Positions 99 to 10,576 of a DNA stretch of 64,000 nt are shown piece after piece. A program made the translations under genes and the position numbers. Each line of letters opens with the position of its first letter. Position 1 is the first letter of the stretch. A model generated the notes under the pieces. That model worked only from the letters and a program-made list of their open reading frames with translations. It was not told the DNA's origin and did not search any database. The stretch lies in assembly GCA_017642965.1 (NCBI GenBank), contig JAEPOJ010000002.1, forward strand, positions 62,001 to 126,000, given 5' to 3'. This DNA is from Phycisphaerales bacterium. Its GTDB lineage: Bacteria; Planctomycetota; Phycisphaerae; Phycisphaerales; UBA1924.

Positions 99-1274
99 TC
101 ACACCGCCAGGCCGGAGATCACGCCGTGGGCGTTCTCGTTCTTGAACTCCAGGGTGTACTCGCCGAGCACCTGCCCGCTGATCGAGTCTCCTGTGGCCGC
201 GAGCGGCTTGTACTGGAAGCTGCGCCCCTGCATGGGCATGACGCTGATACGTGACGAATCGAGCAGCAGCACGCTGTCGGTGGGCACCCACCGGCTCATG
301 ATGACGCGGCAGACGCCGAAGTCGCTCTCGTAGACGCTGATCATGTCCGAGAAGACCTGGTCGTCGGGCAGGTACGCGCGGCTGCCGCTGGCGAACGAGT
401 TGATGCGTCGCTTCTGTGCGCCGCCGACGACGATGGTGTCGATGTTGCCGCTGCTCTGTTCCCAGATGGACTTGAGCGCGGCGTTGAGGACCGCCTCGTT
501 GAGCTGGTCGGTGCCCGCGCCGTCGCCGTCGGGGATGGCGTCCATGCCCGGCATGAACACGTTGGTCTGGATGGAGTGGAGGATGCCGTTCATCGAGCGG
601 CGGACCGTCGTCGAGCCCTGCCCATCGCTCGTCGGCGCGACGCCGTTGATGACGCAGTTCTCCAGGTCGCGCAGGAGCTCGCGCATGCGTTCCTGCTTCT
701 GGTAGTCCACCTCGTCAGCGACGCCGTAGGCCCGGCTGGCCTGCATCGAGCCCGAGACGTCGATGCCCGCGGTGAAGATCTGCGTGAAGTTGCTCCTGCG
801 GACGCGGCTGGTGAAACGTGCCTCTGGCGCGGCGTCGCCCTCGAGCGCCGCGTTTCCGATGATGGTGAGCTTCATGTCGTCGGTGAGTGTTGCCGCGGTG
901 GTTGCCCCGTATCCGCGGACCAGCGCGATCTGATCGGAGGCGCTGACGACGGCGACGACCATGGCGACCTCGCCGGACTCGCCGGGCCTGATGAGATCGC
1001 CCTCGCGGAAGATGCTCGCGTCGTCGACGGTGATGGTGCTCGCGGCCTGCGGGCTCGGGTTGAAGCTCGATTGGTTGATCTGCCCGCTGTTGGGCAGCAG
1101 GGCGTCCTCGATCCATTCGTGGACCGTGGACATCGCGGCGCGTTTCGCGTCTCCGATGTGATCGAGCAGCGGCGTCTCGTGCGGGCTGACGATCCCGATG
1201 ATGTCGCTGACGTCTTCGACCAGTTCGGGGAGCTGCGTCCCCGCCGAGTATGTTGCTTTTCCTGTGAATGCCAT
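99..1274 (-). CDS. Phage major capsid protein (SU10 / DUF5309-like)
   Basis: This 391-residue protein resembles the DUF5309/SU10-type major capsid family, which forms the HK97-fold shell of tailed phages. The N-terminus (KATYSAGTQLPELVEDVSD, then a segment about targets, stability and a Trp-Glu pair) and the middle part with RTSNFTQIF-like and YQKQERMRELLRDLE elements match that family as I know it. The start is supported by a GGGAGG ribosome site. It is the last gene of a minus-strand portal, scaffold, capsid set in the conventional phage order. Tail and head-closure genes would lie to the left, outside the window. Whether this belongs to a live prophage, a remnant or a gene-transfer-agent-like element cannot be decided here. 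Confidence 0.8.
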   Translation of the reverse strand: MAFTGKATYSAGTQLPELVEDVSDIIGIVSPHETPLLDHIGDAKRAAMSTVHEWIEDALLPNSGQINQSSFNPSPQAASTITVDDASIFREGDLIRPGESGEVAMVVAVVSASDQIALVRGYGATTAATLTDDMKLTIIGNAALEGDAAPEARFTSRVRRSNFTQIFTAGIDVSGSMQASRAYGVADEVDYQKQERMRELLRDLENCVINGVAPTSDGQGSTTVRRSMNGILHSIQTNVFMPGMDAIPDGDGAGTDQLNEAVLNAALKSIWEQSSGNIDTIVVGGAQKRRINSFASGSRAYLPDDQVFSDMISVYESDFGVCRVIMSRWVPTDSVLLLDSSRISVMPMQGRSFQYKPLAATGDSISGQVLGEYTLEFKNENAHGVISGLAV

Positions 1275-1349
1275 GTTGCCTCCCGTTTTTCGTTCCCTGT
1301 CTCAGTCCCTTGTTTCAAACCCATCCTGATCTGTTGCGTGTGTGCGCCT

Positions 1350-1862
1350 TTACCCACGCCGTGCACGCAGGTATCGAAGCAGCTCGCTGCGATCGCCCGT
1401 TGTGCGTGCGGTGTGCGCCATGTCGCCCAGCGGGTCCGCGGCGCCGCGCTGTGGCGCGGGCGACATCGAGACCCCGCCGGCGCTGCGCCGCGAGCACCCG
1501 AAGAGGAACGGCTTGCGATCGCACAGCTCGCGCACCGCCGCCGCCACGTCCGGCTCGTCCATCTCCGCGACGACCGCCTCTGTGAGGAGTCGCGCTGTCT
1601 CCAGGTCGACGGCTTTGGCGGCCGTGAGCTCGCGGTCGATCTCGCCGCGCCGCTCGGCGTGCACGAGTGATTCCCGCGCCTGGCTGAGCGCTGATTCCAG
1701 CTCGGAGATCTCGATGCGGAGCGCCTCGATCTGCTCCTCCGCCTCCTCCGCCCTTGCTTTCCAGATGACTTCCTCGTTCACCGCGGCGCTGTGCGTATTC
1801 GTGCTCGCGTCGCCCCCGCCGCCGTCCAGGTTGTCTGCGCCTCCCGCGCCCGATTTGCTCAT
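1350..1862 (-). CDS. Probable phage head scaffolding protein
   Basis: A 170-residue protein with a disordered Gly/Asp-rich N-terminus (about residues 1-25), then a strongly charged coiled-coil stretch (about 30-85, rich in Glu, Ala, Leu and Arg) and a basic tail. I do not recognise the family by sequence. The position between portal and major capsid genes, small size and coiled coil are what is expected of a capsid scaffolding protein. The AAAGGAG ribosome site just before the ATG supports the start. It is separated from the portal gene by 17 bases, so the set is likely one transcript. A different role, such as a decoration or protease fragment, is possible. Confidence 0.55.
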   Translation of the reverse strand: MSKSGAGGADNLDGGGGDASTNTHSAAVNEEVIWKARAEEAEEQIEALRIEISELESALSQARESLVHAERRGEIDRELTAAKAVDLETARLLTEAVVAEMDEPDVAAAVRELCDRKPFLFGCSRRSAGGVSMSPAPQRGAADPLGDMAHTARTTGDRSELLRYLRARRG

Positions 1863-1879
1863 TGTCGTTCTCCTTTGGT

Positions 1880-3391
1880 TTAGACCACGCCCGGGTCGTT
1901 CTCGTTGTATCCCAGCTCTTCGAGCACACGCTCCTCGTCCACGCCCAGCTCAAGCTTGGCCCGACCCGCGGCGATCACCGATTCCTCGTCGACCACCGGC
2001 ATGGGTCCCCACACCACGCGCACGCCTCGCTCGCCCGGGTCCGTCCTGAGGACGCCCGCGGCGTTGAGGTAGTCGAGCACGAGTGTGCTGGCCTGCTCGA
2101 TGCCGCGCCCGTAGGTCACGCGTTTGCGCATGGTTTTGGCGATGAGCCCCATGAGCGTGACCCGGAGTGCGTTGGCGCTGCTGAGGTTGCCGAGCTTGGC
2201 GCGCACCACGCCGCCCGCGACCGGGGGCACGCCGCTGATCTTGTCCATCGCCTCGCGGATCTCGCCGATGTGGGCGTCCTCGCTGGGGCTGCTGGCGTCG
2301 CCGCCGAAGCTGGTGATGGTGGCGTCGGGGTTGTCGGTGCTCCAGACCATGCCGGGGCTGACGCTGGTGCCGCGGAACCCGTCGATGCCCTTGGCGAGGT
2401 ACATCTTGAAGCTCTGCATGGTGACGCGGCTGGCTCGGTCGCTCAGGCGGGTGTTGAGCTCGTCCTGCAAGGCGACGAGCCCCTCGACCTCGCCGATGCC
2501 CTCGTAGACGAACGGCTGGCTCATGTTCTGTATGTGTACGACCGGCAGCGTGCCCGGGAGCAGCGACCACTCGTGCTTTTCCGTGATCTGCCCCTCCTCG
2601 ATGCGCATCCATCCGTCTGTGGTGAAGACCTCGCTTGTGCCGGCGTCGCTGGTCGCGGCGTGGTTCTTCGCGGCGCGTTTCTCGCTGCGGAGTCGGTCGA
2701 GCCATCCTCGGCGAGCGGCATCACGCGATGTGCTGGGCTCGGGTGTGTCTGCGCCGGCGATGTGGAGCGCGTAGAGCTCGATCTCGCGGTAGTCTGTTTC
2801 GCTGAGCACCGCGACGCCCCGTCGTGCGTCGATGGGCTCGATGGAGACCCAGCGGTCCGCGTCATCCGGGCGGGCGCCGGCCAGGCCCTGCTCGTCTATG
2901 CGAACGAGCAGATCGACGTGGCCGAACACGTGCCCGAGCGTGGCCAGGTCCTGGAGCATGGCGATGCCGCCGCTGCCCTCCCACACGCGTTCGAGCGTGT
3001 CTTCGATGGCTTGCTTTGTGGATTGATCCTCGGCGAGCGATTCGATGCGGATGGGCGAGCCGAACATGAAATCGACCATGGACGCGATGCGCCACCCGAT
3101 GTCGTTCTCGATGACGACCTCGCGTCGCCCGTGCTCGGTGCCGCTTGTTCCGTTGCCCACGATCCTGCTGGGGAGCCCGATCTCCTGTGCGGATCGGTAC
3201 CAGCCGCGGGCTGCGCCGTGGGGCGTGTGTGTCGTGCCCGATGCGCGGATCAGCTCAATCGGATTGCGGTAGTACGCCCAGAGTTTTTCGTAGCGAGGCT
3301 TCGAGCGGTACGCGTGCGTCCCGATCGCCTCCCTCGCCCTCAACCAGTCGTTGATTGCGTTCCCGTTGATCGTCATGAGCTGATCCGTCAT
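1880..3391 (-). CDS. Phage portal protein (SPP1 gp6-like)
   Basis: A 503-residue protein with the layout of SPP1 gp6-type portal proteins, the dodecameric ring through which DNA enters the head. Visible hallmarks are an N-terminal segment with a Tyr-Tyr-Arg-Asn motif (YYRNPIE, about residue 40), a central DLVRIDEQG-like strand region, the conserved TLPVVHIQN stretch near residue 285, and the helical SGVPP region near 390 followed by a helix rich in Ala and Leu. The start has a GAGGAGGAGG ribosome site. No terminase gene is found upstream in the next 14 kb, which is unusual since large terminase normally precedes portal. Two copies of a 14-bp palindrome lie 71 and 184 bases upstream and may be operators. 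Confidence 0.8.
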   Translation of the reverse strand: MTDQLMTINGNAINDWLRAREAIGTHAYRSKPRYEKLWAYYRNPIELIRASGTTHTPHGAARGWYRSAQEIGLPSRIVGNGTSGTEHGRREVVIENDIGWRIASMVDFMFGSPIRIESLAEDQSTKQAIEDTLERVWEGSGGIAMLQDLATLGHVFGHVDLLVRIDEQGLAGARPDDADRWVSIEPIDARRGVAVLSETDYREIELYALHIAGADTPEPSTSRDAARRGWLDRLRSEKRAAKNHAATSDAGTSEVFTTDGWMRIEEGQITEKHEWSLLPGTLPVVHIQNMSQPFVYEGIGEVEGLVALQDELNTRLSDRASRVTMQSFKMYLAKGIDGFRGTSVSPGMVWSTDNPDATITSFGGDASSPSEDAHIGEIREAMDKISGVPPVAGGVVRAKLGNLSSANALRVTLMGLIAKTMRKRVTYGRGIEQASTLVLDYLNAAGVLRTDPGERGVRVVWGPMPVVDEESVIAAGRAKLELGVDEERVLEELGYNENDPGVV

Positions 3392-3944: not shown

Positions 3945-5465
3945 TTATGCCCCGATAGACGCGATCTGGGCGTCGATCAGGCTCGCGACGTCCTCGGCCT
4001 GCGCGGCGCTGGGCGCCTCGACGATGACGCGCATGATGGGCTCGGTGTTGCTCGCCCGCACGTGGGCCCAGACGCCCTTGGCGTCCCAGTCGATGCGGAT
4101 GCCGTCCTGCAGGTCGACGCGGCAGTCGCCTTGCTGGCTGTAGATGGCGTTGAGGTGCTGCACGACCGGGTCGGCGTCGGACTTGTTGGCGAGGGCGGAC
4201 TTCTTCTTGATGATGGTGTAGCCGCTTGTTTTCACCTCGTCGGTCGGGCCCATGGCGTTGATCATCTCGACGAGTTGGGAGACGGTCTTACCGGTGCGGG
4301 CCATGAGGGAGAGGACGAGTGCCATGCCCGAGAGTGAGTCGCGGACGTAGGTGACCTCGGGCCAGATGACGCCGCCGTTGCCCTCGCCGCCGAGCACGAC
4401 GTCGCGTCCTGAGGCCTTGAGCGACTTCATCGCCTCGACGACGTTGGCCTCACCCACGGCGGTGCGGACGACCTCGGCGTCGTAGTGCTTGGCGACATCG
4501 TCGATCATGCGGCTGGTCGAGAGGTTGACGACGAAAGCGGGCTTGTCGCTGGCTGATTCGTTGTCGGCTTGGCGCGCCTCCATGAGGGCCATGGCGCACA
4601 GCACGAGCGTGTACTCCTCGCCAATGTAGCTGCCTTGTTCGTCGACGATGGCGAGGCGGTCGGCGTCGGGGTCCTGCGCGAAGCCGACGTCGGCCTTGAG
4701 GCCCGGGACGGCGTCGCAGAGGCCGCCCTCGCCGGAGAGGTTTTCTTTGGTGGGTTCGGGGGTGTGTGGGAAGATGCCGGAGCCGTCGCCGTGGAGTTGA
4801 ACGACCTGATGTCGCTCACGCTTAGAAACAAGGGAGCTGGTGCTGAGATACTGCATTGCTGCATCAGCTCCTGATGTATTCACAGAATCCAGCACTACCT
4901 TAAACTGGCCAGACACCTGCTTTCCGAGCATTGCTCGACGCAGCTTGAATACATGCTGATAAACCGCATCAACTGTGCGCTTCTCATTCCCAAGCCACTT
5001 TGCGCTCGACCAGTTCTGCTGCCCTTGGTACCGCTCGATGATCTCAGCCGCTTCTGCGGCACTCGGCGCACGAGCGACAACTGATTTTCCGTCTATGTCT
5101 TCATCGTGTTTGAAGACCAAACCCTTTATCCCATTCCACTCCTGCGGATTGTGACTCGCGGTCACGATTAAAGCTCCCATGTAGCCGTTCTCATCTACGG
5201 CCACTCCGACCGTTGGAGTCATCGCAACCCCGATCGGAAGCACATCACACCCCACGCCCCGAAGACCAGCAATCACCGCGTGATAGATCACTTCACCACC
5301 AGCCCGGCCGTCACGAGCAACCACGACCCCACCCCATGATTCGAACTGGTCTTGGATCCACTGCCCAAACGCCCCCGCGTACCGCACCGCGACCTCTGGC
5401 GTGAGGTTCTCGCCCACGATCCCCCGCAGCCCGCTCACACCCAGAATCAACGGCGCATCACTCAT
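3945..5465 (-). CDS. Phosphohexomutase (phosphomannomutase/phosphoglucosamine mutase family)
   Basis: A 506-residue alpha-D-phosphohexomutase, which interconverts the 6- and 1-phosphates of a hexose or hexosamine for cell-envelope sugar synthesis. The four landmarks are present: the phosphoserine loop TASHNPQEWNG (about residue 90), the Mg loop DPDADR (about 270), the sugar-binding GEGNGG loop (about 355) and the phosphate-binding RASNTEP (about 470). GEGNGG, in place of the GGEQSGH of bacterial GlmM, resembles archaeal-type mutases, so glucosamine, mannose and glucose phosphates are all possible substrates. The ATG at 5465 is preferred over a GTG at 5474 because AAGGAG lies eight bases before it. 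Roughly residues 102-221 are encoded by DNA of about 52% GC, lower than the flanks, which suggests a recombinant segment. Confidence 0.88.
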   Translation of the reverse strand: MSDAPLILGVSGLRGIVGENLTPEVAVRYAGAFGQWIQDQFESWGGVVVARDGRAGGEVIYHAVIAGLRGVGCDVLPIGVAMTPTVGVAVDENGYMGALIVTASHNPQEWNGIKGLVFKHDEDIDGKSVVARAPSAAEAAEIIERYQGQQNWSSAKWLGNEKRTVDAVYQHVFKLRRAMLGKQVSGQFKVVLDSVNTSGADAAMQYLSTSSLVSKRERHQVVQLHGDGSGIFPHTPEPTKENLSGEGGLCDAVPGLKADVGFAQDPDADRLAIVDEQGSYIGEEYTLVLCAMALMEARQADNESASDKPAFVVNLSTSRMIDDVAKHYDAEVVRTAVGEANVVEAMKSLKASGRDVVLGGEGNGGVIWPEVTYVRDSLSGMALVLSLMARTGKTVSQLVEMINAMGPTDEVKTSGYTIIKKKSALANKSDADPVVQHLNAIYSQQGDCRVDLQDGIRIDWDAKGVWAHVRASNTEPIMRVIVEAPSAAQAEDVASLIDAQIASIGA

Positions 5466-5504
5466 CGCATCCACTCCTTATCCTTCTCCAACACTCTACC
5501 CCCC

Positions 5505-5810: not shown

Positions 5811-6188
5811 GTGTACACCATCACTGTCACGCATGAGTTCTGCGCCGCCCACACGCTCACCATCGCGGGCGCCCGGGAGCCGCTGCACGGGCACAACTTT
5901 GTGACCAAGGCGACGATCGCGGGCGACACGCTCGATGGGGACGGGCTGCTGTGCGACTTTCACACGGTGCACGATGTGCTGGTTGAGATCTGCAACCCGT
6001 TTACGAACCAGAACTTCAACGAGATCGCGCCGTTCGACACGACCAACCCCTCCGCCGAGCTGATCGCCAGGCACATTGGCGAGGAGCTGGCCGGGCGTCT
6101 CGATCACGCCCTGGCGCCCAATGCCCGGGTCCACAGCGTCTCGATCACCGAGGCGCCGGGGTGCGTCGCGACGTACACACGGCCTTGA
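5811..6188 (+). CDS. 6-pyruvoyl-tetrahydropterin synthase / QueD family protein, PTPS-III type
   Basis: A 125-residue member of the PTPS/6-carboxytetrahydropterin synthase fold, which acts on 7,8-dihydroneopterin triphosphate or dihydroneopterin. Three zinc-binding histidines are visible (His14, and His26 and His28 in HGHN), with the conserved NPSAE and TEAPG motifs further on. QueD enzymes have Cys-x3-HGH; here that Cys is an Arg and a Glu sits three residues before the HGH (Glu23-Pro-Leu-His). Glu-x2-HGH is the published hallmark of the PTPS-III subgroup, which replaces dihydroneopterin aldolase (FolB) in folate synthesis. A queuosine role is therefore less likely. The start is GTG, three bases after the membrane protein stop, without a clear ribosome site, consistent with coupling. 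Confidence 0.82.
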   Translation: MYTITVTHEFCAAHTLTIAGAREPLHGHNFVTKATIAGDTLDGDGLLCDFHTVHDVLVEICNPFTNQNFNEIAPFDTTNPSAELIARHIGEELAGRLDHALAPNARVHSVSITEAPGCVATYTRP

Positions 6189-6404
6189 TCTCATGGTGTT
6201 CAGCCGCACTGCGCGTCTGCGACGCGAGTACGGGCACCCAGATATCGCCCCGGAGCGCAATATCTGCCTCGCTCGCGGGCATGATCAGAATTTGGGCCTA
6301 TTCCCCCACCTCCACGAAACCCGCCTTGCGTCCCCGCCGATCCGTCAGGCGTGCATCGGCATGGGCCGACTACGCACCACGTGAGACACACACCAAAAGG
6401 ACGC

Positions 6405-6998
6405 ATGCGCATGTTCAACACCCCATTCAACGGCGGCAACTGGAACTGGAACAACGGCAACAGCTGGGGCGGCAACACCTTCCCCGGTTTCTCGGGTTTC
6501 GGTGGCGGCTTCGGCGGCTTCCCCTCCTTCAACAACTGGAACGGTTTCACCCCGTGGAACAACAGCGGCTGGGGCTTCAACGGCTTCGGCGGGAACGGTT
6601 TCGGTGGGAACAACGGCTGGAACGGCTTGAGCGGTTTCAACTCGTGGAACCCCGTGAACTGGTTCAACGGCTTCAACAACAGCTGGAACTGGAACAACCC
6701 CTTCGTTGGCTCCTGGAACAACGGGTTCGGGTTCAACGGCTTCGGCGGCAACCCGTTCTTCGCGTTCAACCCCTGGAACTGGAACAACAACAGCTGGGGC
6801 TTCAACGGCTTCGGCAACGGCTGGGGCTTCAACGGCGATGACGCCTGGTCCGAGCCCACCGAGTTCACCGGCGAGTCGTTCAACGGCGGGTACAACAACG
6901 GGTACGGCCCGTTCCCCGGCGGGTTCAACCCCGGCTTTAACGGTGGGTTTAATCCGAACTTCAACGGTGGCTTCAACGGCTTCAATCAGGCCGCCTGA
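6405..6998 (+). CDS. Asn/Gly/Phe/Trp-rich low-complexity protein
   Basis: A protein of about 197 residues made almost wholly of Asn, Gly, Phe, Trp, Ser and Pro in short irregular repeats such as NGFGG, WNWNN and GFNGG. After the start region there is no Lys, Arg, His, Cys or Ile, there are 17 Trp and at least seven Phe-Gly pairs, and the only acidic residues cluster near residues 140-160. No signal peptide or membrane segment is seen, so it may act in the cytoplasm unless exported by another route. The AAAAGG ribosome site precedes ATGs at 6405 and 6411; either could be used. A strong terminator follows. I know no family for it. The composition suggests a self-associating or phase-separating protein; this is inference. 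Confidence 0.7.
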   Translation: MRMFNTPFNGGNWNWNNGNSWGGNTFPGFSGFGGGFGGFPSFNNWNGFTPWNNSGWGFNGFGGNGFGGNNGWNGLSGFNSWNPVNWFNGFNNSWNWNNPFVGSWNNGFGFNGFGGNPFFAFNPWNWNNNSWGFNGFGNGWGFNGDDAWSEPTEFTGESFNGGYNNGYGPFPGGFNPGFNGGFNPNFNGGFNGFNQAA

Positions 6999-7025: not shown

Positions 7026-7054
7026 AACGCCCCCCAGCGGGGGCGTTTTCTTTG
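7026..7054 (+). terminator. Rho-independent terminator after the low-complexity gene
   Basis: A 9-bp stem (AACGCCCCC at 7026-7034, GGGGGCGTT at 7039-7047) with a four-base loop is followed by TTCTTTG. It lies 27 bases after the stop codon at 6998. Confidence 0.85.
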
Positions 7055-7165: not shown

Positions 7166-7978
7166 ATGCGTTTGCGATTCCTTGGCACCGGCACTTCCGC
7201 GGGCATCCCCGTCATCGCGTGCGACTGCGCCACGTGCACCTCCACGGACCCGCGCGACACCCGCTCGCGTTGCAGCGCCACGATCGAGTTCACGGATGAC
7301 AGCGGGCAGGAGCGTGTGATCCTGATCGATGCGTCGCCCGATTTTCGTGCGCAGGTGCTGCGTGAGCAGATCCCTCGCATCGATGCCATCCTCTTTACGC
7401 ATAATCACGTGGACCACACCTTCGGGCTCGATGAGGTGCGCCGGTTCAACGAGGTCATGCGCCAGCCGATCCCGATCTTCGCTGACGAGCACACGATGAA
7501 CGCGCTCGGGCGGGTGTATCAGCACATCTTCTCGCCGCACACGAATATCCAGTCCTCGTTCATCGCGTCGCTCGAGCCCACGATCATCTTCCCGAACGAG
7601 CCCTTCGAGCTCTTCGGGCTTCGCATCACCCCGATCACGCTGATGCACGGCAAGCTGCCGATCCTCGGCTACCGCTTCGATCATCCGGCCAGCCCCGGCC
7701 CGCTGCCGCTCGCGTACTGCACGGACACGTCCGAGATCCCGGAGGACACCTATCCGCAGCTCGATGGCGTGGAGACGCTGGTGCTCGATGCGCTGCGTCA
7801 CCGCCCGCACCGGACGCACTTCACGGTGGAGCAGGCGATCGAGGCCGCGGAGCGGATCGCGCCTTCTCGGACGTACCTGATCCACATGACGCACGACCTG
7901 CTTCATGCGAAAGAGGATTCCGTCCTCCCATCCGGCATCACCCTCGCGTACGACGGGCTCGTCGTTTCGGAATCCTGA
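7166..7978 (+). CDS. MBL-fold metallo-hydrolase, PhnP-like
   Basis: A 270-residue metallo-beta-lactamase-fold enzyme. It starts with the GTGTSAGIP loop and a CDCATC cysteine pair like that of PhnP-type phosphodiesterases, and has the HNHVDH metal motif at about residue 80, then further metal ligands at CTDTSE (about 190) and a C-terminal HMTHD. PhnP cleaves phosphoribosyl cyclic phosphate in phosphonate breakdown, but no phn genes are near, so the substrate is open; many such genes act on cyclic phosphodiesters or nucleic acids. An in-frame TTG at 7160 exists, but the ATG at 7166 is chosen because of the TATCCT hexamer five bases before it. Confidence 0.85.
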   Translation: MRLRFLGTGTSAGIPVIACDCATCTSTDPRDTRSRCSATIEFTDDSGQERVILIDASPDFRAQVLREQIPRIDAILFTHNHVDHTFGLDEVRRFNEVMRQPIPIFADEHTMNALGRVYQHIFSPHTNIQSSFIASLEPTIIFPNEPFELFGLRITPITLMHGKLPILGYRFDHPASPGPLPLAYCTDTSEIPEDTYPQLDGVETLVLDALRHRPHRTHFTVEQAIEAAERIAPSRTYLIHMTHDLLHAKEDSVLPSGITLAYDGLVVSES

Positions 7979-8070: not shown

Positions 8071-8244
8071 ATGGCCGAATCCGTCAACCCCAACAACCAG
8101 TCCCCGCGTGCCCCCCAGATCACTGCTCTTTCGACCGCGTTCCCGATGCACTTCGAGACCAACACGGTCCGCACCAACGAGGACCCGCGCCGTGCCCAAG
8201 TGCAAACGACCCGCACCCCCCACCGCCACGACGCGGGGGAGTGA
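8071..8244 (+). CDS. 57-residue hypothetical protein
   Basis: A 57-residue hydrophilic protein rich in Asn, Thr, Pro and Arg, with a basic His-containing C-terminus and no membrane segment. The ATG at 8071 has a strong GAGAGAGGAG ribosome site and a Rho-independent terminator follows within 36 bases of the stop, which together argue for a genuine small gene although I know no relatives. The frame is open upstream, but no other start has a ribosome site. Confidence 0.6.
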   Translation: MAESVNPNNQSPRAPQITALSTAFPMHFETNTVRTNEDPRRAQVQTTRTPHRHDAGE

Positions 8245-8438: not shown

Positions 8439-8527
8439 GTACATGCGCGGAATCGGCGCTCGGCCATTGGCACCCGCTGGGTTAAGCTGGCCTGATACAC
8501 ATTGAATGCAGCCATTGATATGGGGTG

Positions 8528-10576
8528 ATGACCATGCTTCCGTACCGATCAAGAATCGCTTGTCTGTATGCCACGATCTGCGCTGTGTGCCTGCTGCAGA
8601 CGGTGTGCCTCGCCGATGGCGCGCTGTGCCGAGGACATGCCTTCGCCGGGATGTACAACGAATCGATCAGGGCCGAGCAGCTCGAGATTGTTGGCGATAT
8701 CGCGTATGTGGCGGGCGTCCTCACCGGTGTTCATATCCTGGACATCTCGGACCCGACCAGCCCTACGCTCCTGAGCCGATCGCTGGTCGACATCAACGCG
8801 ATCCTGGATATCAAAGTCGTCGACAACACCGCCTACATCGCGGCGGGCTCGGCGGGGCTCATCGTCGTTGATGTTTCGGACCCAACCAACCCGGTCATCC
8901 TCGCCGAGGTCCCCACTGAGGGGTATACCTTCCGCATCGATGTCGAAGACGATGTTGCGTTCCTTGCCTCGAGCTTTTACTTCAACGGGATCTCGGCCTT
9001 CGATGTTTCAGACCCGGCCCACCCCCGCCTGCTGGGCACCGTTGAGGCGCAGCACCATCAGATGCACCTCGACGCCAGGGACGGGATCCTCTACTACACG
9101 AACGGCGACTCGACATTCATCGCCCTGGATGTCCAGGACCCGAGCAGCATGGCGTTCATCGGCGGGATCGCGATGAATCGCGCGATCAGGCACTTTGTCA
9201 TCGACGGCGATGTCGCCTGCTTCTTTGGGTACGAGTCCACTTCGCTCGTCGACATCTCAGACCCCCGGGGCATGAAGCCGCTCGGGGTGGAGCACGCGCC
9301 CGCATCCATGGGGGCGTATGACCACGCGACGCAGACGACGTATCTGCTCCAATCGGGCGAGCCGTTCAAGGTCTTCGATGTCTCCTCCGGCGACAACTGG
9401 GAGTGCCTCGGTTCGTTCGACACCTACGGCTCCCGCTACGACATCATCATCCATGATCACTATGCGTTGATCGCGGCGGGCGGAACCGGGCTGCAGATCC
9501 TGGACATCGCCGCCCCCCGTGCGGAACCGTTCATCACGCAGATGCAGCTGGATTCGCCGGGCAACGGCCTCGCGTTCCGCTCTCACTATGCGTACGTGGC
9601 CAGCGAGGACCACGGGCTTAAGGTGATCGATTTCGACGACCCGAGCTCGCCGGAGCTCGTCGCCCAGTACGAGACACCCGGCGAAACGACGGATATCCAG
9701 GAGCACGGCGGCTATGTCTACCTCCAGGATGATGCTGCTGGGGTGCTGATCTTCGACGCCCTGATCCCCGATCAGCCGCAGCTGGTGTCCACGATCGAGG
9801 TTTCTTCGATGCCCTTCTGGTTCTGCATCGACTCGGACAGGGCCTACATCGCCAATGCGGAAGACGGGCTCGTCATCTATGACATCTCCGACCCGAGCTT
9901 GCCGGTTCAGATGGGCTCGTACCAGACAAAGGACGGCACGAGCGGGATCGCGGTTGATGGCGACACGGCGTACTGCCTGACATCGGATCGCCGCGCGGTC
10001 CAGATCATCGATGTCACCAACCCCCAGCAACCCCTCCGCATATCCGACTTTGAGCCCGAAACATCGCTGCACGACTTCATCGCGCACGACGGGATCTTCT
10101 ACGCCATCCGATCGCAGGGGTACCTTGAGATCTACGATGTTGCCGATCCGCATGCCGTCACGCATCTCTCGTCATTCGAGCTCAGCTCCAACGTGTTCCT
10201 TCCCGATCTCCGTCTCATCGAGAACACCACGCTGCTCTCGCTCGTCGGATCCGCAACAACCATCGTGGATGTCGCGGACCCCACCCGCCCCAGACTCGCG
10301 GCACGACCCGACACGGGGACCACGCGGACCGCGGCTGTCTCTGGCTCGCTGCTGTTCACCGGGTACCCGCTCGGGATCAGGATCTTTGATCTGAGTGATT
10401 GCCCCCTCTGCCCAGCGGATCTCAACGGGGATCAGCAGCTCAACATGCACGACGTCTCGATCTTTCTGGATGCCTATCTGAGGCAGATCCACACCGCCGA
10501 CTACACCACCGATGGGGTGCTGGATTTCTTTGATGTTTCCGGTTTCCTCAACGCGTTCAACGCCGGCTGCCCCTAA
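8528..10576 (+). CDS. Secreted LVIVD-repeat beta-propeller with GC-type dockerin domain
   Basis: A protein of about 682 residues with an N-terminal signal peptide (hydrophobic run about residues 10-28), about a dozen LVIVD-type repeats (each with a VxxIxDVSDPxxP core) that should fold as a beta-propeller, and a C-terminal pair of calcium-binding dockerin-like repeats (ADLNGDQQLNMHDVS and TTDGVLDFFDVSGFL) ending in NAGCP. The GC-terminal signature is that of the dockerin class described in Phycisphaerae secreted proteins, thought to anchor or sort them at the cell surface. Function beyond a surface propeller is unknown. ATGs at 8528 and 8534 are both possible. A terminator follows. Confidence 0.8.
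   Translation: MTMLPYRSRIACLYATICAVCLLQTVCLADGALCRGHAFAGMYNESIRAEQLEIVGDIAYVAGVLTGVHILDISDPTSPTLLSRSLVDINAILDIKVVDNTAYIAAGSAGLIVVDVSDPTNPVILAEVPTEGYTFRIDVEDDVAFLASSFYFNGISAFDVSDPAHPRLLGTVEAQHHQMHLDARDGILYYTNGDSTFIALDVQDPSSMAFIGGIAMNRAIRHFVIDGDVACFFGYESTSLVDISDPRGMKPLGVEHAPASMGAYDHATQTTYLLQSGEPFKVFDVSSGDNWECLGSFDTYGSRYDIIIHDHYALIAAGGTGLQILDIAAPRAEPFITQMQLDSPGNGLAFRSHYAYVASEDHGLKVIDFDDPSSPELVAQYETPGETTDIQEHGGYVYLQDDAAGVLIFDALIPDQPQLVSTIEVSSMPFWFCIDSDRAYIANAEDGLVIYDISDPSLPVQMGSYQTKDGTSGIAVDGDTAYCLTSDRRAVQIIDVTNPQQPLRISDFEPETSLHDFIAHDGIFYAIRSQGYLEIYDVADPHAVTHLSSFELSSNVFLPDLRLIENTTLLSLVGSATTIVDVADPTRPRLAARPDTGTTRTAAVSGSLLFTGYPLGIRIFDLSDCPLCPADLNGDQQLNMHDVSIFLDAYLRQIHTADYTTDGVLDFFDVSGFLNAFNAGCP

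Follow-up and report, generated by a model that had tools for sequence, protein, structure and literature searches.

A genus-wide conserved Asn/Gly/Phe/Trp protein of Phycisphaerales, nearly devoid of charge and evenly patterned with aromatic residues

The 64 kb window analyzed here (the whole stretch of 64,000 nucleotides of a Phycisphaerales genome) contains, at 6411..6998 of the plus strand, a gene for a 195-aa protein running from MFNTPF to NQAA and made almost entirely of uncharged polar and aromatic residues. The gene is real and under purifying selection, and its composition, aromatic patterning, termini and cis-elements are conserved genus-wide. It defines a new family, so far found in a single genus, that is kin in kind to low-complexity aromatic polymers. 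We propose, with middling confidence, that its product is a small, fully disordered sticker-and-spacer protein that would self-associate into a condensed or gel-like phase in the cell.

The first-pass annotation had read the locus as a 197-residue frame with 17 Trp and no Lys, Arg or His past the start. Translation of 6405-6998 (plus strand) from its first ATG agrees, the sole charged residue near the N-terminus of this longer version being R2. The likelier start is the second ATG at 6411, because the Shine-Dalgarno sequence AAGGA (6397..6401, plus strand) is located 9 nt before it and only 3 nt before the alternative start at 6405, and because the second ATG alone is present in relatives beyond the nearest four. 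The resulting 195-aa protein carries 17 Trp, 34 Phe, no Lys, Arg or His, and five Asp or Glu, all of them in one patch. It is the only stretch of at least 80 residues free of Lys, Arg and His in the six frames of the whole window, so that the frame is not a product of chance. Open frames also overlap the gene on both strands, probably as by-products of its codon make-up. The converse, that the frame itself is the by-product and the conserved entity is an RNA or a protein of the opposite strand, would be in keeping with these long open frames and with the structured leader RNA, but it can be dismissed almost entirely: dN/dS in the frame is 0.15-0.53 over seven orthologue pairs, below 1 in all of them, and therefore selection acts on the protein; start and stop are conserved in all members; a Shine-Dalgarno sequence and a terminator are found in most of them; and the search of Rfam gave no match above threshold. 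A sub-threshold Rfam match to isrJ was judged to be chance. Codon usage, taken as a gauge of high expression, resembles that of EF-Tu in genome G000, a resemblance that most relatives do not show. Among the coding sequences of the orthologues (L041-L049), those from the less GC-rich genomes encode Pro nearly always by CCA, whereas neighbouring genes prefer CCC, as in G004, where CCA accounts for 13 of 14 Pro codons in this gene and 1 of 7 in neighbouring genes.

Orthologues are present in 16/16 genomes of the genus with readable flanking genes, in which they adjoin queD and/or a metallo-beta-lactamase (MBL)-fold gene; the five remaining genomes of this 21-genome genus, whose completeness is 56-84%, contain neither flanking gene. 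Ordinary searches gave a different picture. A BLAST-type protein search of 61 genomes found the gene in four, i.e. three besides the present one (4/21 of the genus), and a profile built from these four rows detected nothing beyond the same four genomes. The three relatives shared the conserved ends MFNTPF and WSEPTEFTGE...QAA, queD being upstream in all three and the MBL gene downstream in two of them. The patchy distribution suggested by these counts was ruled out as a failure of sensitivity, since inspection of syntenic intergenic regions and a DNA pattern for MFNTPF raised the number of carriers to 14. Among 163 genomes of the taxonomic family this pattern matched in 10, all belonging to the genus, and each match was the start of the gene. 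In genomes G010 and G020, the site after queD is empty; absence of the gene was rejected when the MBL flanks, scanned for composition, revealed it upstream of the MBL gene in both, bringing the total to 16. Named members include the Phycisphaerales bacteria UBA1910 and UBA3190. In a tree of the MBL neighbour, which also included 17 further members of the taxonomic family, the 16 carriers form one clade with support 100/100, and the distribution thus fits a single origin on the stem of the genus. Outside the genus, no relative was revealed by the MFNTPF pattern in the 142 other family genomes or by a profile search of two samples, one of 400 genomes from the order and one of 392 from the phylum. 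The MBL flanks of 21 outgroup genomes, scanned with looser composition criteria, likewise gave no relative, nor did viral contigs. As the same profile also missed G010 and G020, restriction to one genus is likely rather than proven.

Composition is shared to a high degree by the 16 members, which range from 149 to 207 aa. In 2856 pooled residues, Asn (629, 22%), Phe (448), Gly (448), Pro (278), Ser (239) and Trp (237, 8.3%) prevail, whilst Arg and Ile never occur, Lys occurs once, Leu twice and His four times. Aromatic residues amount to ~25%, Asn, Gly, Gln and Ser together to 50%, and Lys, Arg, Asp and Glu together to 2%. The net charge of members is -1 to -5 and stems mostly from the C-terminal patch. 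The mean gap between aromatic residues is 3.8 residues, 83% of gaps being of 2-5, and the spacing is more even than in shuffled sequences in 16/16 members (P 0.023 in G003 and <=0.0015 elsewhere). Particular words are enriched over expectation: G-F (188 vs 71), W-N (171 vs 53) and N-T-P-F/W (40 vs 0.7). Orthologue alignments reveal a core with fast turnover through indels and repeat changes, its composition being held, and the two ends are the parts best conserved by position. MFNTPF opens most members. An acidic patch (6837..6875, plus strand), DDAWSEPTEFTGE in this species, has an E/D-containing counterpart similarly placed in all relatives according to alignments and D/E positions. The C-terminal tail (6909..6995, plus strand; PFPGGFNPGF...NQAA) is also conserved, and QAA ends 16/16 members. 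The first-pass annotation had made its reading depend on conservation of composition and synteny in relatives, and both are conserved.

The gene is framed by its own putative expression signals. The ribosome site and terminator proposed by the first-pass annotation were recovered as the AAGGA at 6397..6401 and as an intrinsic terminator, a stem-loop with a T tail, at 7026..7047 (plus strand); a script search detected a terminator-like hairpin followed by a T tail in 14/16 members. Upstream, a candidate promoter AAAC-N17-CGAT (6317..6341, plus strand) is conserved in relatives. Its 17-nt spacing is identical in 15/15 genomes, G013 being left out of the count as its contig ends before the block, and the first half reads AAAC or AAAG in 13 genomes and CAAG in two. 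The shape recalls ECF-sigma promoters, and no sigma-70-like site was found. A genus-wide scan with the promoter-like block returned too many matches to delineate a clear regulon. Between the block and the gene, a leader hairpin (6349..6375, plus strand; core TCGGC-ATGG-GCCGA at 6356-6369) varies in sequence among relatives but its pairing is kept. In an alignment of the 11 members whose stem fits one ungapped frame, an alignment picked by eye that thus leans towards structure, 95.5% of cells are paired, with 19 double-sided changes compared to 7.9 in shuffles and a covariation of 0.855 compared to 0.415 in shuffles and to at most 0.20 when slid. Single-sequence folding of the leader was only modestly better than that of shuffles in most members. 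Since the promoter-like block, the leader hairpin and the terminator flank the gene, it most likely forms a monocistronic unit with its own promoter and structured leader. Further upstream, alignment and a pattern scan identified an inverted-repeat element, GCGCA-N5-TGC(GC), at 6255..6268 (plus strand), which reads GCGCAatatcTGCC in this species and GCGCAGATAACGCGCCGGAC in other clades. In a genus-wide scan, every exact copy lay at this gene, the relocated loci of G010 and G020 included, and a regulon sharing this element was rejected on these grounds.

The flanking genes, assigned by Pfam and synteny, encode a 6-pyruvoyl tetrahydropterin synthase/QueD family protein upstream (5811..6188, plus strand; PF01242, E 1.3e-26) and an MBL-fold hydrolase downstream (7166..7978, plus strand; PF12706, E 4.5e-38). 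As queD adjoins the gene in 13 genomes and Asn makes up 22% of the residues, one may imagine a queuosine-linked translation sensor, in which decoding of the Asn-rich chain would depend on Q-modified tRNA-Asn. We regard this as highly improbable: two genomes, G010 and G020, have the gene next to the MBL gene and apart from queD, and in most genomes the genes around it share its preference for AAC. The proximity of queD is probably passive, because in these two genomes the gene parts from queD and stays with the MBL gene. At these relocated sites (L018 in G010 and L025 in G020), the gene and its GCGCAGATAACGCGCCGGAC element stand beside the MBL gene, behind an apparent gpsA, and the gene that comes after queD is 2-amino-3-ketobutyrate-CoA-ligase-like. 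Other genes of the region were also recorded. The MBL gene is followed at 8071-8244 (plus strand) by the gene of another small conserved protein, of ~57 aa (MAESVNPNNQSPRAPQITALSTAFPMHFET...HRHDAGE), and this order recurs in two relatives (L002, L003). At 8525-10576 (plus strand) lies the gene of a large LVIVD-repeat beta-propeller protein with a dockerin-like C-terminus (ADLNGDQQLNMHDVSIFLDAYLRQ), an arrangement typical of exported Phycisphaerae proteins. On the minus strand, phage structural genes at 99-3391, encoding an SU10-type major capsid protein and an SPP1-type portal, lie 0.5 kb from a gene of the phosphoglucomutase/phosphomannomutase family (3945-5474) and 3 kb from the Asn/Gly/Phe/Trp protein gene; they probably represent the margin of a prophage carried by this genome.

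Database comparisons agree with the first-pass annotation that the protein belongs to no named family: Pfam, NCBIfam, PHROG, PDB and Rfam offered no match. In the members scanned, neither Pfam nor PHROGs gave a hit, and the NCBIfam search yielded no family match, only one of E 0.4 in 1/14 members. PDB sequences showed no relation; one match of E 0.64, to a viral glycoprotein, was judged to be chance. No description of the protein was found in the open literature. AlphaFold2, run on a 14-row alignment, predicted no secondary structure, with a mean pLDDT of 45, a value that would suit a disordered chain but is weak proof of disorder when obtained from a low-complexity alignment of this depth.

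The resemblance to prion-like or phase-separating sequences put forward by the first-pass annotation is strengthened by the even spacing of aromatic residues in 16/16 members, the depletion of charge and the lack of a predicted fold, and condensation is plausible; the comparison with FG-nucleoporins is weak. Aromatic density is about twice that of prion-like domains of the hnRNPA1/FUS type. With these domains the protein shares a low-complexity, polar, uncharged sequence rich in Asn, Gln, Gly and Ser, in which aromatic stickers separated by uncharged polar spacers are more evenly distributed than by chance across homologues (PMC10491635). It differs from them in using Trp and Phe instead of Tyr, in having virtually no Arg or Lys, and in being a bacterial, stand-alone protein without a folded RNA-binding domain. 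Among bacterial proteins, phase separation involving disordered segments is described for McdB, CsgF and the anammox S-layer protein Brosi_A1236, to which no sequence relation was found; none of the three is known to be built wholly of Asn/Gly/Phe/Trp low-complexity sequence.

The FG-nucleoporin comparison could be extended to a bacterial permeability phase serving the internal compartments of planctomycetes, which we consider very improbable. It draws on real likenesses to Nup98-type FG domains (PMC9918544): the near-total depletion of positive charge, low complexity, uncharged Asn/Gly/Ser/Thr/Gln spacers and a Phe-based sequence. In Nup98 FG domains, charged residues, negative ones above all, are depleted (PMC9918544), and Trp, Tyr, His, Cys, Val and Ile are selected against; Tyr, His, Cys, Val and Ile are rare in the pooled members as well. 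Trp, in contrast, is abundant (237/2856, 8%). The F-G dipeptide is barely enriched, with 86 seen and 72 expected in the 16 proteins (z 2.0) and only two in five members, and with Leu at 2/2856 GLFG cannot prevail; the conserved words are G-F, W-N and T-P-F/W rather than FG or GLFG. Aromatic residues recur every ~3.8 residues compared to one FG per 12, and the members are short (149-207 aa vs 500-700), net negative and so far found in one genus only. Because of this confinement, the protein has no bearing on how nuclear pores arose.

In the sticker-and-spacer polymer that we favour, Phe and Trp, one every 3-4 residues, would be the stickers, and Asn, Gly, Ser, Thr, Pro and Gln the uncharged spacers. 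The chain would self-associate, giving rise to a condensed or gel-like intracellular phase, and the conserved ends (MFNTPF at one; the acidic patch, the P-F-x-G tail and QAA at the other) would be short motifs that anchor the chain, dock or bind partners, or govern turnover, with the promoter-like block, the leader hairpin and the terminator setting the dose. That the gene is expressed, that the chain is disordered, condenses and stays in the cytoplasm, and that its termini act in this way are all inferred. Strong cohesion is expected because about 25% of residues are aromatic and almost none are charged. Uniform aromatic stickers across homologues are a reported hallmark of phase-separating prion-like domains (PMC10491635), and low charge is among the key parameters in the assembly of Nup98 FG phases, in whose repeats moderate negative charge already abolishes phase separation (PMC9918544). 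The net charge of -1 to -5 would accordingly count against condensation, though it is mostly confined to one C-terminal patch. An aromatic content of ~25% is also far above that of studied condensate proteins, and with such a content the protein might simply aggregate or be exported.

A cytoplasmic location is suggested by the lack of a recognisable signal sequence, as judged by eye: the MFNTPFNGG... N-terminus has neither a positive residue nor a hydrophobic core, and no membrane segment is apparent. The same features, and the lack of an adjoining secretion gene, make it unlikely, though worth serious consideration, that the protein leaves the cell by an unrecognised export route and forms an extracellular or envelope adhesive, gel or amyloid-like matrix for biofilm or particle attachment. 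Such matrices do suit chains rich in Asn, Gln, Gly and aromatic residues, and a planctomycete (anammox) surface protein phase-separates via a disordered region (PMC7482068). The ends allow for another role, which we judge improbable: instead of a scaffold, the protein would be a short-lived client, regulatory or decoy, in which they would be degrons or docking peptides and the core would only set solubility. QAA-COOH closes 16/16 members, and the C-terminal -AA (cf. ClpX substrates) is a plausible protease signal because the tmRNA (ssrA) tag of the genus, AEPQYALAA (AKPQYALAA in G020; loci L161-L172), ends in ALAA; the promoter-like block and hairpin leader would also suit such a client. The residue before -AA is, however, Gln here and Leu in the ssrA tag, and a degron needs no even aromatic pattern.

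Returning to the self-associating polymer, its strongest form, in which we place limited belief, would be a dedicated single-protein scaffold of an undescribed cytoplasmic body: a cation-free Trp/Phe polymer that, together with a promoter, leader hairpin and terminator of its own, may have arisen a single time on the stem of the genus. Ordinary homology searches miss such a gene, found at first in 4/21 genomes of the genus and yet present in every one of the 16 that allow a judgement. The gene would represent a genus-restricted case in which selection preserves composition rather than fold. Should the protein condense, nature would have supplied an experiment in condensate grammar, with evenly spaced Phe and Trp, uncharged spacers and no Arg or Lys as auxiliary stickers, and its 16 divergent orthologues would constitute ready-made variants.
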